Source: Tumebacillus algifaecis
GTDB taxonomy: Bacteria; Bacillota; Bacilli; Tumebacillales; Tumebacillaceae
Assembly (NCBI RefSeq): GCF_002243515.1
Contig: NZ_CP022657.1
Span: forward strand, 4,217,001-4,281,000
Direction of reading: 5' to 3'
Length of the DNA: 64,000 nt
The notes under the pieces are model-generated. The model was not told the DNA's origin, did no database searches, and saw nothing but the letters and a program-made list of their open reading frames with translations. Of this stretch, positions 47,773 through 53,794 are shown in pieces (the first letter of the stretch is position 1; every line of letters starts with the position of its first letter). A program made the position numbers and the translations under genes.

Positions 47773-48450
47773 CTACGGCAGTTTCAACACTTTTCCGATC
47801 TGCAGCCGCTTGAGATCTGCGTCGGACAGGTTGTTCAGCTTCTGAATCTCGGGGTACCTGGCACCATTTCCAAGGTGCTTCTGAGCCACAGACCAGAGCG
47901 AATCACCCGCCTTCAAGGTGTGCGTCTTCGGCTGCTGACGATCATCCGGCCGCGTTGCGGTCTGCTTGACGAGCGATGTCTTCGATGCGGCTTGTGCGAT
48001 CGGCACAACTTTTTTCGCCGCGTAGAAAACATATTTTTTCAAAGTAAGCGAGTATTCAATGTCACCGGGCGATCCCGCAACCTCGCGCCATTCGAACGAT
48101 TCGATGCTGGCAGGAGTGTTGATGTCGAAATTGCTTCCGACGAAAACAAAGCGGATGGGCCGCTTGGACTCCATCCACTTCTTAATGAGTTCGACGTAGA
48201 AAAGCACAGGCTCCAGAAGACCGCCAGACGCATTTGAGATGACGAACGGGTATTGCTGCGCCGGAAAGATGCCTTCGAACTTGTACTCGGTCAGGCTCGG
48301 GCTCTTGATGACGTTGATCTCACCAAGTGTCGTAATGTCATATGTCTTCCCGTTGCTCTTTTCCCGCATCTCGATAGATGCGGGATTGACGGGCAACTGA
48401 AAGCCTTCTTCCTGGTTGTTGAAACTCAACCAGATTCCATAATCACGCAC
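47773..48450 (-). CDS. LysM-domain tail protein (XkdP-like)
   Basis: This 225-aa protein has an N-terminal DUF-like domain (LPVNPASIEMREKSNGKTYDITTLGEINVIKSPSL), a linker, and a C-terminal LysM domain (HTLKAGDSLWSVAQKHLGNGARYPEIQKLNN...LQIGKVLKLP). The LysM probably binds peptidoglycan in the tail tip, or acts as the gp53-like clamp. Start: GTG 48450 behind GGGGGTG, overlapping the tape measure stop by 8 bp. Confidence 0.92.
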   Translation of the reverse strand: MRDYGIWLSFNNQEEGFQLPVNPASIEMREKSNGKTYDITTLGEINVIKSPSLTEYKFEGIFPAQQYPFVISNASGGLLEPVLFYVELIKKWMESKRPIRFVFVGSNFDINTPASIESFEWREVAGSPGDIEYSLTLKKYVFYAAKKVVPIAQAASKTSLVKQTATRPDDRQQPKTHTLKAGDSLWSVAQKHLGNGARYPEIQKLNNLSDADLKRLQIGKVLKLP

Positions 48451-50926
48451 CGTTATACACCCCCGCTGCACTGGTTGCGATCTGCTCTTCTAGTGACTGC
48501 TCGATCCGTCGAATGATCGTGTCGATGTCGTAACCGTTTCGGATGTCGCCCGTTTGCACATTCACGGTTGGCGTCAAGGTGACGAAATTCTGAATGCTTT
48601 GCATCTCCGCCAACTCGCGCATGACCTTCAGGTCCTCACTTGAAACGTCCACAGAGTCCTTGATCTTGCCGACCTCATCCACTGACCCGATTTTGTCGAT
48701 CTTCGGGACGTTATACGAAGCGTTTGGATCGATTCCCGGTAACTCGGGCATTTTGAACTTGCTGAGCAGTCCCGCACCAGCGCTGTATCCGACATCAAAC
48801 GACTGCTTGATGTCCTTGGACTGCATACGTGGTGTTGAGACAACACCCTTCGTGCTTGTCGGCTTTTCGAGCATGTTCATCATCGATTTAACTCGATCAC
48901 TCACCGCGTTGACGTTGTTTACGTCGTATAGCTCTACTTTCGGGATGTTGAAGCCTGGAATGTTGTTCATTGCATCGACAAGCCGATTGATGCCGCCAAG
49001 CACCTTGTTTACTGCCTCCAGTACCGTAGTCATAAATCCGCCCGCGAAACCTTCAGCACCACGGAGCATGTCATACGTGTACTGCAAGAAGGTCATCATC
49101 AAGTCGTAAAACAGCTTCTTAATTGCGTACACCGGATCAATGAAGATGTTGATCAAGAACTCAGCTACAGCTGCAAAAACATTGTAGAACAACGCTACGT
49201 TGTTCCAGATCGTAGCAAACAACGCCATAAACGTACCAGCTACCATTCCTAGTGCCTGTTCTGTCGATACACCGAAGTAATTCAAAACTTCGATCAGCGC
49301 CCACACCGCTAGGATAATTACAACGATCGGCCAGTTCAATGCCATCCACGCGATAGCTGAGCGAACCAGTTGGGCGGTCATGACGCTAAGCATCGAGATG
49401 ATTTGCACCAGATAGACCGAGGCAATCGCAATCAGAATCGGCTGAATGGTTGACCAACTAGAAAGAATGAAATTATACAGAAACCTGACGCCGTCAAACA
49501 GTAAACCGACAGCTTGCGTCGTGGCATACAGTCCGGTTTGCAGTTTTGAAAAGAATGTTGCGGATCCATCGCTATCAAAAAATGCATTCACACGGTCAAT
49601 CAGCGGTGCAAACGCAGCGAGCGCCCCTTTGCCCGCCTCGGCAAGTCTCCACCGTGTGTTTCCGATCAGCTTTTCCCACTTTGCAGCGGGGCTGTCCAGC
49701 ATCTTTTCAAACGCTTTTTCGGTCATGTTCTGCTGGTTGAGCAGTTTATCCATGCCCGCGATGAATCCGGACACGTCCCCGGCTTTAGCAGCTTTCAGAG
49801 CGTCGCTATCCTTGATGACCGATCGTCCGATGTTGAAGCGTTCAACAATCGAAACGTAGTCTCCGGCCATAAGTTCTTTCATCGAAAATGCGGCACCCTC
49901 GAGCCCCTCTAACGGGTTAAGCTTAGAGAGCCGCATCGCCAGCTTATTCAAATCGGTCAATTGCTTCGGGTCCATCGACAGCGACATGAACGAATTTGAT
50001 GCACGCATCGCCTGATCTACTTTTTGTCCGAATTGTAACGCTTGTTTGGACACTTGATCGTAAATTGCATTTCCGAGCGCCTCGTTGCCAGCACGAGCGA
50101 CAAATGTGTCCAGGTACTGTTGCTGCTCCATAGCTGCCCCAAGTGTTGAGGAAACCAATTTCTGTGCCGCTGCGATGCTCAAGTATGCCGCTGCGATTCC
50201 TTTTAGGGTCGATAGCATCCCGTTCGCATCACGTCCACCTTCGCGGATTCGTTCGTTCAATTGCCGTTGCAGTTGGTTTATCCGCGCTTCAAGTTGAGCG
50301 ATACGTTGTAGCGCATCCTGAAGTTGTCTCGCGCCAGAGATCGGAAAGTTCGAGTTGAGTTGCCGCACAGATCGCAGGAGCAGTAGAACGAGCCTGCGTA
50401 AATTTTCTACCGCAGTCGTCACTGTCGATGAGAATTGAACTTGTATTTCCGCTCGGATCGATCCGATTTCAGTTTGTATTCTCGTTCGGAGCCCATTCAG
50501 TGATGCCCGTGAAATGCGCAGATCAATGTCGGCATGAAGCGTACTGATTTGCGCGCTTAGCCGGTCTCGGAACCGCTGAATATGGCTCGTTGAGTTGTTA
50601 GATAAACGCAATTGAATATCGGTCTGAACGGTGCCGACCTGCGTCGAGATCATCCTTCGAATCCTTTCGACTTGTGACGAAGTGAAGGATGAAGATCGCA
50701 ACTGAATATCGACTTGGATGACGCCGATGGTAGATGTGATCATTGTCTTCGCACGCTGTATCTGAGTCTGAACTGAAGAAGTGTCGATTCTAAGTTGCAG
50801 GTTGGTGTTCAGTGCATTCTGCAAGCGATGAGCAGAACCTGTCATGCGATTTAGCGACTGCTCTGCTCGGTTAGCGTTATTAGAGAAGCGATCGAGAAGT
50901 TGCAAACTTGTACTAACGGTAGCCAT
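48443..50926 (-). CDS. Tail tape measure protein
   Basis: This protein of about 827 aa starts at ATG 50926 (MATVSTSLQLLDRFSNNA) behind AAAGGAGACAAGG. Residues about 50-185 hold at least four 30-35-residue imperfect repeats of the form Ixxx(I/V)GxxxxDIQLR(L/S)S. A coiled coil follows (RISQLEARINQLQRQLNERI-like), a hydrophobic middle (SWSTIQPILIAIASVYLVQIISML and WPIVVIILAVWALIEVL), and a C-terminus rich in polar sequence. Its length sets the tail length; by the usual ratio the tail should be a little over 120 nm, an estimate only. Confidence 0.92.
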   Translation of the reverse strand: MATVSTSLQLLDRFSNNANRAEQSLNRMTGSAHRLQNALNTNLQLRIDTSSVQTQIQRAKTMITSTIGVIQVDIQLRSSSFTSSQVERIRRMISTQVGTVQTDIQLRLSNNSTSHIQRFRDRLSAQISTLHADIDLRISRASLNGLRTRIQTEIGSIRAEIQVQFSSTVTTAVENLRRLVLLLLRSVRQLNSNFPISGARQLQDALQRIAQLEARINQLQRQLNERIREGGRDANGMLSTLKGIAAAYLSIAAAQKLVSSTLGAAMEQQQYLDTFVARAGNEALGNAIYDQVSKQALQFGQKVDQAMRASNSFMSLSMDPKQLTDLNKLAMRLSKLNPLEGLEGAAFSMKELMAGDYVSIVERFNIGRSVIKDSDALKAAKAGDVSGFIAGMDKLLNQQNMTEKAFEKMLDSPAAKWEKLIGNTRWRLAEAGKGALAAFAPLIDRVNAFFDSDGSATFFSKLQTGLYATTQAVGLLFDGVRFLYNFILSSWSTIQPILIAIASVYLVQIISMLSVMTAQLVRSAIAWMALNWPIVVIILAVWALIEVLNYFGVSTEQALGMVAGTFMALFATIWNNVALFYNVFAAVAEFLINIFIDPVYAIKKLFYDLMMTFLQYTYDMLRGAEGFAGGFMTTVLEAVNKVLGGINRLVDAMNNIPGFNIPKVELYDVNNVNAVSDRVKSMMNMLEKPTSTKGVVSTPRMQSKDIKQSFDVGYSAGAGLLSKFKMPELPGIDPNASYNVPKIDKIGSVDEVGKIKDSVDVSSEDLKVMRELAEMQSIQNFVTLTPTVNVQTGDIRNGYDIDTIIRRIEQSLEEQIATSAAGVYNGA

Positions 50927-50944
50927 CACCTTGTCTCCTTTCCT

Positions 50945-50976
50945 CAAAAATAAAAGCACCCGATTTCGCGGGTGCC
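50945..50976 (-). terminator. Terminator between membrane moron and tape measure gene
   Basis: Minus-strand GGCACCCGCGA / TCGGGTGC hairpin with TTTTATTTTT tail, eight bp past the membrane-protein stop and before the tape measure start. A terminator inside a late structural operon is unusual. Confidence 0.88.
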
Positions 50977-50983
50977 TTCGTAA

Positions 50984-51301
50984 TTACAGATCGTATTCTC
51001 TTCGCATTGTAGTTTTCGACTTTTGCGCCGCGCTAACCATGATCAGAATGCCGGACAAAAGGTGCATTACCCAGCCGACAAACGGTATCCAAGCCACTAA
51101 TGATGTCACAATCCCCAGCACTGATCCGTAAATCGGCTCCTTGTTTCGTGCAGAGAGAATCAAGGCCACTACATGCAGAATGAACATTATTCCGAGTGGT
51201 ACATAGGCGAGACTAACGACGATCAGTGCGCCTAGTGCCGGGATCGCCAAAAAAATTTCTAGCGATCCAGTAAGCCATCTCATAATCCTTGAAGCAGTCA
51301 T
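50984..51301 (-). CDS. Three-helix membrane protein, probable moron
   Basis: This 105-aa protein has hydrophobic segments at about 12-32, 33-52 and 57-90 (LEIFLAIPALGALIVVSLAYVP, IMFILHVVALILSA, VLGIVTSLVAWIPFVGWVMHLLSGILIMV) and a basic tail. The start is ATG 51301 with AGGAGGAG. It sits between the tail chaperone genes and the tape measure, where these phages normally have nothing, and has its own terminator. Superinfection exclusion or a host-interaction role is possible. Family not recognised. Confidence 0.8.
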   Translation of the reverse strand: MTASRIMRWLTGSLEIFLAIPALGALIVVSLAYVPLGIMFILHVVALILSARNKEPIYGSVLGIVTSLVAWIPFVGWVMHLLSGILIMVSAAQKSKTTMRREYDL

Positions 51302-51405: not shown

Positions 51406-51546
51406 TTATTTTTTTTGCCGCTTCTTCTCTTCAGCCACACGCACATCGATCATAGCGAAAATCGCGGCCCTTTCAGGCCGCGACATGTTCGCCAGTTCAT
51501 GCGGGAGAATTTTCAGTTCATGGAGAGCGTAGTAAGCGTATGTCAT
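51406..51546 (-). CDS. Tail assembly chaperone, second ORF (gpT-like extension, 46 aa)
   Basis: The ORF ATG 51546 to TAA 51406 encodes MTYAYYALHELKILPHELAN and a C-terminus FAMIDVRVAEEKKRQKK, the usual short second-ORF pattern (YY...L..LP..ELA.m.p.Eraa......a.eEKK). A GGAGG precedes it, but the frame is also open upstream, and continuous in the -1 frame with the first ORF from the A AAA AAC site at 51570-51576. It is therefore probably made mainly as a frameshift fusion that adds about 55 residues to the XkdN-like protein. Confidence 0.8.
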   Translation of the reverse strand: MTYAYYALHELKILPHELANMSRPERAAIFAMIDVRVAEEKKRQKK

Positions 51547-51566
51547 CTCACCGTCACCCTCCTTGA

Positions 51567-51983
51567 TCAGTTTTTTACATCATCCATCAACTCTGACGTT
51601 TCTTTTTCGTACCCGTTGATCTCCTGCACAGCTGTGACAAGATCAACAAACTCGCCCGGCTTCAACATCTTGCGGAGCAGGTTTTCTGCGCCGCGAACGC
51701 CGTAGGAGTTTTGCAACTCTGCGTTCTTGAGATCGGGGAACACAACGCTCGCTACTACCAGCTTAGCCAAATACTCGTATTGATCGGTCTCGGTGATGAA
51801 TTGACCTTTCACTTTGGCGCGTTTGGTCGAGGCTTTGCGCAATACTTCGCTCTCCTCTTCAGTCATAGCTCGGATTACCCATTTCGCTGGTTTGCCATCT
51901 TCTCCTTTAAAGCGATCGGACACTACGATCTCCTCGGTGGTTTCTGTTACCGCGTTCTGTGCGAAAAATGCACTCAAGCTCAT
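51567..51983 (-). CDS. Tail assembly chaperone, first ORF (XkdN-like)
   Basis: This 138-aa protein starts at ATG 51983 (MSLSAFFAQNAVTETTEEIVVSDRFK) behind GGAGG; the TTG 15 bp upstream is part of the site. It matches XkdN/YqbN-type proteins between tube and tape measure genes: KPAKWVIRAMTEEESEVLRKAS and the Leu-rich C-terminus. It ends ELMDDVKN, the last codons forming the slippery sequence. Like lambda gpG/GT, it should coat and recruit the tape measure during tail assembly. Confidence 0.93.
   Translation of the reverse strand: MSLSAFFAQNAVTETTEEIVVSDRFKGEDGKPAKWVIRAMTEEESEVLRKASTKRAKVKGQFITETDQYEYLAKLVVASVVFPDLKNAELQNSYGVRGAENLLRKMLKPGEFVDLVTAVQEINGYEKETSELMDDVKN
51570..51576 (-). other. 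Programmed -1 ribosomal frameshift site (A AAA AAC)
   Basis: The zero-frame codons GTA AAA AAC TGA end the XkdN-like ORF. The heptamer A AAA AAC is the strongest bacterial -1 slippery type, directly before the stop. A -1 slip continues through CTG ATC AAG GAG GGT ... into the 46-codon second ORF without a stop. The GGAGG 3' of the slip site could act as a pause element only if upstream; here it is downstream. Confidence 0.82.
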
Positions 51984-52009: not shown

Positions 52010-52477
52010 TTAACCGAGAACAGGTTTACCGAATTCGTCCAAAATGTCGATGTCGCTGTACTTGAAGTCCATCGACTCGTCGAGGAATTCGCTATCTAAA
52101 TCAAGCTTCGCCATGGTCACTTTGCTCAAAGTGACATTCCGGATGATTACTGTTTGCTTGCCGATGCTGCTGGAAGGATCGTCATTGACAACTTGAATAT
52201 CAAAGTAGGTTACTATGCCTGTCTTGATATATCGCAAAGCAATCTTGCGAAAGATCGACGTCGCATAGTAGATATCCAAACTACCCGTTCCTTTCCATCC
52301 GGTGATCTTAGTTTGAGTTCCACGATGACCGAATGATTTGAACTCAGCTTCGTCAAATTCTGCGTCGATTTGAATGTTCTTGCAGTAAAACATCTCTTCG
52401 ACTTGTCCGTCAATGATCGTGTAAGAACGACCTTCTTTGCCTGAGATTGCATCTTGTGCATGGAAGAAGTCCGGCAA
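52010..52477 (-). CDS. Phage tail tube protein (XkdM-like)
   Basis: This 155-aa protein begins at TTG 52477, immediately after the sheath stop TAA, giving MPDFFHAQDAISGKEGRSYTIIDGQVEEMFYCKNI, which matches the XkdM N-terminal pattern including the ISGKEG segment. The beta-rich remainder fits the tube fold. It polymerises inside the sheath. Confidence 0.93.
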   Translation of the reverse strand: MPDFFHAQDAISGKEGRSYTIIDGQVEEMFYCKNIQIDAEFDEAEFKSFGHRGTQTKITGWKGTGSLDIYYATSIFRKIALRYIKTGIVTYFDIQVVNDDPSSSIGKQTVIIRNVTLSKVTMAKLDLDSEFLDESMDFKYSDIDILDEFGKPVLG

Positions 52478-53794
52478 TTATCTCACCTGCACTTTCATGT
52501 ATATTTTCTCCACGGCATCAACCGGCTGCACGTTGACCTCCGCATACACGCTTTCGGAGTCATCGCCGACTTTCACGAGAACGTCCGTCTGCGCATCGAA
52601 GTTTTGAATCGCGCTCAGGTTCTGCAACAGATCAAAGTATTTATTGTACTCGTTACGAATGAGATTGCGCCCGTCATCCGTGTTCGCCACTTTGCCGACG
52701 AACGTGCTTTCGAACGTTCTTTTCATGTCGTTGTTGATACCGTCCAGAACTCGCAAGACGCGGTTTTTCGAGAAGTGCCGTTGTTTGGTCGGCGTGTAGC
52801 TGGACAACGTGTTGATGTCCTGCTCCACGACGATGCGGCCGTTATTCCGCGTAAATACGATCTCGCCAGCGCGCAAGGCCGCTTCGATTTGTGAGTTGGT
52901 ATAGCGAGGATTCGCATCGACAGCATCCTCATACGGCGAGTAGGTCAGCGACTGGTTCACAGCCGCACCCGCCGTTGCAGCCGCCATCCATGCTGTTGCC
53001 TGCGCCGCGGTGAGCGACGTGCCGTCCGACAGCACCACGCCGTTTTTGACAGAGATGACACCTTCATAGTCGGCCGTTGCATAGTTTTCCAGCACCGCCT
53101 GCACCTTGACCCCCTCACTGTCGCGAAGACGCTTCACAAACGCTGTGTACAGCGTCTTGAGCGTGTTGTCTGTCGAGACGAGAGCGATCGTCTGGAAGTC
53201 TGTCAGCTCGATCGCTTCCAAGTAGTCGCTGTGATCCTGATTTGTTGCCGTGCCGTCTGCGCCGCCTGTGAGTGGAGCGGATGCTGTGGCAGTGAGTGCG
53301 CCTGTGCCGCTAAACGTCAGCCAGTCGTTAGCCTGCAAGCCATCGATTGCAGCTGCGGTCTGCTCGTCCAGCACCACGCCTTGGAGCATCGTGCGGACGA
53401 TGTATACCAATTCGTCATCGATGTCCTGCTGAATCGTGACCGTCAGGTCGTTACCGCGCACGCCGCCATACTTCGCCGTGGCTGTCAGACCGCCGACCGT
53501 TACCTTTGCCTTGGTGCCAGCGTTCAGTCGGTAAAGCAGGATTGTCTTTGCCCGCTTCAGCGCCTCGCGGACAAGCAGGAGTTGCGGGGTGGCGATGTCA
53601 TAGCCAAGCAACTTCGACGTGTCGTCACCAGCGTTGACTGCGATCACCGCGTGGTCAGCCCCCCACGACAGCGGCAGAGCCATCGTCACGACCCCGCGAT
53701 CCCCGAGTGTGCCACTAGCTTTGGGCACGCTTTCAAAGTTGATGTAAACGCCAGGCCGCGTTTTGTCCTGAGTCGTAAATGTTCCACCAGCCAT
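52478..53794 (-). CDS. Contractile tail sheath protein (XkdK-like)
   Basis: This 438-aa protein begins MAGGTFTTQDKTRPGVYINF behind GGAGG. Typical sheath features are the early RPGVYINF, the central insertion domain (about 100-200), and the C-terminal sheath core with NTLSSYTPTKQRHFSKNRVLRVLDGINNDMKRTFE. Presence of a sheath classes the phage as contractile-tailed (myovirus morphology). Confidence 0.95.
   Translation of the reverse strand: MAGGTFTTQDKTRPGVYINFESVPKASGTLGDRGVVTMALPLSWGADHAVIAVNAGDDTSKLLGYDIATPQLLLVREALKRAKTILLYRLNAGTKAKVTVGGLTATAKYGGVRGNDLTVTIQQDIDDELVYIVRTMLQGVVLDEQTAAAIDGLQANDWLTFSGTGALTATASAPLTGGADGTATNQDHSDYLEAIELTDFQTIALVSTDNTLKTLYTAFVKRLRDSEGVKVQAVLENYATADYEGVISVKNGVVLSDGTSLTAAQATAWMAAATAGAAVNQSLTYSPYEDAVDANPRYTNSQIEAALRAGEIVFTRNNGRIVVEQDINTLSSYTPTKQRHFSKNRVLRVLDGINNDMKRTFESTFVGKVANTDDGRNLIRNEYNKYFDLLQNLSAIQNFDAQTDVLVKVGDDSESVYAEVNVQPVDAVEKIYMKVQVR

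Follow-up and report, generated by a model that had tools for sequence, protein, structure and literature searches.

Our analysis of a prophage tail module in Tumebacillus algifaecis points to a tail assembly chaperone (TAC) gene that is very probably decoded with -1 programmed ribosomal frameshifting as in lambda G/GT, here in a contractile tail of the PBSX/XkdN branch. We favour this reading because of the anatomy of the sequence, the conservation of both the slippery heptamer and the -1 frame, the folding of the RNA and the gene order, and from these we infer the slippage itself, its rate, its stimulation by a hairpin and the roles of both products. The majority of ribosomes would end at the TGA and yield a 138-aa chaperone, and a minority would shift back one base on A_AAA_AAC and read 54 more codons, giving a chaperone-T fusion of 192 aa (138 + 54, given slippage of both tRNAs); a hairpin starting 7 nt downstream would aid the slip. 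On the model of lambda gpG/gpGT, the tape measure would be coated by the short form and tube subunits recruited by the fused T domain, and both forms would be absent from the finished virion. Binding of the T domain to the tube subunit would likewise be as described for lambda (PMC5009743), and according to an excerpt of another source, the XkdN-like gp57 of a different phage, phiCD508, was undetected by virion mass spectrometry (PMC11948020). Comparison with relatives strongly supports the lambda G/GT-like fusion that a sequence-only reading of this DNA had proposed.

The chaperone and the -1 frame lie on the minus strand of the window (the whole stretch of DNA analysed, 64 kb), inside a prophage tail module bordered by head and baseplate genes (Table 1). 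The genes follow the order sheath, tube, TAC, T and tape measure, with one 105-aa ORF between T and tape measure. This intervening ORF has many hydrophobic stretches; it matched no Pfam family above the cut-off, and its PHROG matches were weak. Translation of ORF1 would start at the ATG at 51983-51981 and, in minus-strand reading, its final codons are GTA AAA AAC, so placed that the heptamer has the phase X_XXY_YYZ. The perfect A_AAA_AAC at the ORF1 stop, with the -1 frame open beyond it, was thus confirmed as first read. Codons of the -1 frame occupy 51570-51409, and its TAA stop 51408-51406. Also present as originally described is a second ORF of 46 codons with its own ATG and a GGAGG, the latter at 51562-51558 with the in-frame ATG 11 nt beyond it on the minus strand.

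Table 1. Features of the chaperone locus and its neighbours (coordinates of the window)
Feature	Coordinates	Strand	Evidence
Tail sheath protein	52478..53794	-	PF04984 1.1e-39; phrog_279
Tail tube protein (DUF2001/XkdM type), adjacent upstream gene	52010..52477	-	PF09393 1.5e-40; phrog_365
ORF1, XkdN-like tail assembly chaperone (TAC), 138 aa, frame 0	51567..51983	-	PF08890, phrog_389, 3KLU
Slippery heptamer A_AAA_AAC, adjoins frame-0 stop	51570..51576	-	sequence
Frame-0 stop TGA	51567..51569	-	sequence
-1 frame extension (T-like domain), 54 codons, begins LIKEGDGEMTYAYYALHELK	51406..51570	-	sequence; PHROG matches; pN/pS
Predicted stem-loop, start 7 nt past heptamer	51522..51562	-	RNA folding
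46-codon reading of -1 frame from internal ATG (51546-51544)	51406..51546	-	ORF list
105-aa ORF between T frame and tape measure	50984..51301	-	ORF list
Tape measure protein, downstream	48443..50959	-	phrog_1068 9.6e-121

ORF1 is a TAC of the XkdN-like family PF08890, by profile match as well as by fold. It scored 150.8 bits against PF08890 (cut-off 27), covering profile positions 1-135 of 135, and 4.1e-47 against phrog_389. Its one significant sequence relative among solved structures is YqbN of Bacillus subtilis (PDB 3KLU; phmmer 3.4e-12), and an AlphaFold2 model of ORF1 (pLDDT 74) matched the same structure with a Foldseek E of 1.2e-07 and TM scores of 0.75/0.86, against an E of only 0.32 for the HK97 TAC 2OB9. 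The -1 frame matched phrog_20560 (1.7e-08) and phrog_10943 (2.7e-06), both families of unknown function. In three phage records, phiCDKH02 (L065), PVJ1 (L073) and MissE2 (L076), XkdN-like chaperones are labelled 'portal protein'.

The heptamer in the window, taken by itself, occurs at chance frequency and is not significant: AAAAAAC was counted 12 times against 11.4 expected, and some slippery heptamer falls within the last six codons of 9 of 519 stop-to-stop frames of at least 60 codons, among which a -1 extension of more than 41 codons follows at the TAC site only. These window counts would suit a coincidence, in which a heptamer arose by accident where a TAC gene ends and happened to be followed by an open frame. 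The comparative data refute this explanation, to which we assign a negligible probability, since the site, the frame and the folding of the RNA are conserved in relatives, and it is because of this conservation that the site is more than chance. We collected 156 loci, 61 from IMG/VR, 18 from phage records (of 33 matching ones) and 77 from whole-genome stretches, the last including the two of the window's own genome and leaving out the matches G277:C34, G277:C38 and G227:C8; the sets overlap, as with L100 (G109) and L190. A_AAA_AAC is present in 149 of the 156, at the TAC stop or at most 10 codons before it (it adjoins the stop in 121, precedes it by one codon in 25 and by ten in two, and in L061 again by one). 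The sequence-only reading had named loss of the heptamer in relatives keeping both ORFs as what would count against it. No such loss was found among the IMG/VR relatives, in all 61 of which A_AAA_AAC directly adjoins the stop or lies one codon upstream, with an open -1 frame of 37-70 codons beyond, nor in a scan of GTDB genomes, where the best 80 of 118 relatives gave 80 loci out of 80 with the heptamer.

Codon choice at the site tells the same story. After dereplication at 80% TAC identity (98 sequences; alignment A3 took 98 of 99 chosen, L131 being left out), the site lies no more than one codon ahead of the stop in 91 of the 98, for which the synonymous chance of exactly these codons is log10 P = -110, a figure in which kinship overstates independence. 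Elsewhere in the same genes of the 80%-identity set lysine is AAA in 56% of cases and asparagine AAC in 45%, against near fixation at the site. Judged from these sequences, the site looks nearly universal in the contractile-tail XkdN gene family.

Seven loci depart from A_AAA_AAC: three have A_AAA_AAA, one A_AAA_AAG and one a run of eight A, where a different shift would be required, and the remaining two are a single-frame fusion and a decayed locus in which the heptamer is gone and the TAC is also interrupted by an internal stop. In phage EJ-1 (L068, NC_005294) chaperone and T domain form a single ORF of 198 aa, either a natural variant or a sequencing matter. The BFVD entry A0A8S5MA28, also 198 aa and named 'tail assembly chaperone protein', may already be such a fusion. 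The second XkdN copy of the window's own genome (L063, G000:C1:716880-717260) has kept A_AAA_AAC, and its -1 frame diverges in the middle of the T domain from that of L091, in a genome of the same genus.

Runs of A also invite an explanation at the level of transcription, in which RNA polymerase stutters on the A6 run, inserting or omitting one A, and a mixture of mRNAs yields both products. We consider it very unlikely. The site is a run of A, and in one branch (L136, L141, L146 and L148) A_AAA_AAC is replaced by A9 in three loci and A8 in one. A6 is short for transcriptional slippage, however, and 149 of 156 loci have A6 followed by C in fixed phase with folded RNA beyond, which counts against it because slippage by the polymerase requires neither the C nor the fold. 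It is in the A9/A8 branch that transcriptional slippage is of particular interest.

Selection on the -1 frame reaches back to the site. Over 211 pairs drawn from 84 sequences, the -1 frame has a pN/pS of 0.21 in codons 1-8 and 0.25 in codons 9-44, similar to the 0.21 of the chaperone's last 30 codons, and the two alternative frames give 1.26 and 1.83; pairs were retained if they shared 22 or more of 44 -1-frame residues (211 of 302), a choice that lowers the -1-frame ratio. The ratios point to purifying selection on the -1 frame right from codon 1. Synonymous conservation, followed codon by codon, is only mildly raised just past the site; because upstream frame-0 codons contaminate its expectation, it carries no weight in our argument. 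ATG, GTG and TTG are absent from the first 12 codons of the -1 frame in 62 of 92 non-redundant relatives (ATG by itself in 79 of 92), and of the 80 genome relatives taken, the best of 118, 72 have no start in the same stretch; the remaining relatives, like the window's copy, have a possible start in the -1 ORF. The ATG of the window is -1-frame codon 9, a position at which methionine occurs in 1 of 92 sequences, the window itself, and alanine in 37 of 92.

These observations bear on a model of two separate proteins, in which the second ORF would be translated from the ATG at 51546 by way of the GGAGG, coupled to termination at the TGA, with or without the fusion alongside. The spacing of GGAGG and ATG in the window speaks for it, and so do five of 14 annotated two-frame phage records, which have a separate, shortened ORF in the T region; the T feature is absent from the other nine, and in none of the 14 are the frames joined. 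Against it stand the relatives that have no start and the protein-level conservation of codons 1-8, which precede the window's ATG and so would be non-coding if the second ORF were a separate gene. Moreover, the five annotated short ORFs start at -1-frame codons 16-27, inside the domain, and GGAGG (nt 8-12 after the heptamer, in the 5' arm of the predicted stem) and ATG (nt 24-26, near the loop) both lie within the predicted hairpin. We hold the separate-protein model to be unlikely, and we reject free translation as the chief route to an ORF2 product, since start codons are missing and protein-level conservation extends ahead of the ATG. The free product that the sequence-only reading had allowed for from the second ORF's own ATG and GGAGG thus finds no support as a general feature, because 62 of 92 relatives have no start there; in the window's prophage alone, a minor free second product may be made.

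Frameshifting at such a site would be favoured by a structure in the mRNA. In the window, an outer stem of 8 bp (GGAGGGUG/CGCUCUCC, arms 51562-51555 and 51529-51522) is predicted from 7 nt past the heptamer, enclosing an inner stem GGUGAG/CUUACU (arms 51552-51547 and 51536-51531, minus strand). Folding was assessed in 91 of the 92 sequences. Stretches of 65 nt starting 3, 5 and 8 nt past the heptamer gave mean z values of -2.91, -2.94 and -2.53, against -0.06 to -0.54 for control stretches of the same length upstream and further downstream. Compared with synonymous-codon shuffles, the 66 nt past the site had a mean z of -2.57, with 63% of the 91 below -2, against -0.35 and -0.31 in two control regions, so that, on the mean of the relatives, the RNA after the site folds beyond what protein constraint explains. 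For the gene in the window itself the folding signal is unremarkable: the site has a z of -2.34, and two control stretches have -3.87 and -2.43. Another hairpin of 10 bp lies inside the T frame (51461-51484, minus strand), with a z of -4.5 in the window at offset +60 and a mean of only -0.4 in the relatives.

Among 98 aligned close relatives, 84.4% of the cells of the outer stem are paired, where versions slid along the alignment reach 45-61%, and the covariation score of the stem is 0.240, against 0.197 in shuffled and at most 0.156 in slid versions. Swaps within it include GC to CG in seven sequences (pair 9-47) and GC to AU in six (pair 11-45). Double-sided changes, found in 24 cells, exceed those in shuffles (9.5) but equal those of two slid versions, and addition of the inner stem lowers pairing to 75.4%, with a score of 0.191 against 0.175 for one slid version. 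RNAalifold with default scoring gave no consensus structure in the aligned relatives, and with RIBOSUM scoring it recovered the outer stem together with a short inner stem. Among the 91 relatives, the minimum-energy stem is separated from the site by 5-9 nt in 38, by less in 29 and by more in 19, and is absent in five; the spacer is exactly 7 nt in 20. Across these 91, no single stem common to the divergent branches was found, though the heptamer is kept there. A downstream structure at short spacing is predicted for the window and for the close relatives, in most of which it takes the form of a stem some 7 nt past the heptamer.

Judged by its sequence, the locus is built on the pattern of lambda G/GT: the pair sits between the major tail or tube protein and the tape measure, the first ORF has, close to its end, an in-phase slippery heptamer that is conserved in relatives, and the chaperone ORF is followed, as in lambda and its relatives, by a short, conserved -1-frame ORF generally without an independent start. 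It differs from lambda in belonging to the TAC sequence family PF08890 and to a contractile tail, in having the stop codon directly at the site and folded RNA after it, and in the heptamer, which is A_AAA_AAC here and G_GGA_AAG in lambda. With B. subtilis YqbN and the XkdN of PBSX it shares TAC family and fold. The aligned sequence of 3KLU also ends in KN, a likeness at the protein level; a difference is that the solved chain is the short form. The site is also present in PBP180, a PBSX-like phage of Bacillus pumilus. TAC frameshifts are classical, 28 phages having been listed by Xu et al. in 2004 (as related in an excerpt of PMC10885494). In the accessible parts of the respective sources, A_AAA_AAC is named for the TAC pair of the haloarchaeal virus HCTV-2 (PMC5009743) and given as 'possibly' the site in Paenibacillus larvae phage Dragolir (PMC6003738), and gp181/gp182 of phage G, which is contractile, are recognised by frameshift as a G-T type chaperone pair (PMC8570332). 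We liken these three pairs to ours by description, the same source texts describing neither family-wide conservation nor a hairpin for them.

The identity of the heptamer counts against frameshifting to some extent, A_AAA_AAC being reported in the available part of PMC5009743 to slip far less readily in E. coli than A_AAA_AAG does. In the 27 tRNA stretches of the host scanned with ARAGORN, the nine tRNA-Lys genes found all have the anticodon UUU, with CUU absent; Rfam gave 158 tRNA matches in the genome, not all of them placed in these stretches. An idea to which we give even odds is that, in the window's phylum, the contractile-tail phages of the XkdN family have in common a single ancient recoding cassette, made up of A_AAA_AAC and a hairpin shortly downstream, that would set the ratio of TAC to TAC-T. 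It would work with a heptamer type that is poor in E. coli, even though UUU is the sole tRNA-Lys anticodon among the scanned tRNA genes of this host, as it is in E. coli. If this is true, the shiftiness of bacterial -1 sites depends on more than the lysine tRNA set. The conserved A_AAA_AAC could also serve as a natural series for testing working -1 sites on Gram-positive ribosomes.

While the mechanism itself is known in phages, the XkdN-type site is unmarked in the annotated records that we examined. The accessible part of a table for a PBSX-like phage of B. pumilus places the tape measure directly after a 146-aa chaperone (PMC8347963). A partial survey of literature on XkdN or PBSX together with frameshifting turned up no description of the site in the texts covered, which, given its partial nature, does not show absence from print. 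A rule combining A_AAA_AAC at the XkdN stop, an open -1 frame and folded RNA after it would help annotators of PBSX-like phages and tail bacteriocins to restore a conserved factor of tail assembly.

A separate observation concerns the genome in which the window lies (G000:C1). Besides ten full-length 16S genes it holds ten truncated 16S pieces, running from model position 9 to 546 or 873 (for example 4427810-4428688 and 1348802-1349680), together with further 3' pieces; the truncated pieces are either real fragments or a sign of assembly trouble.
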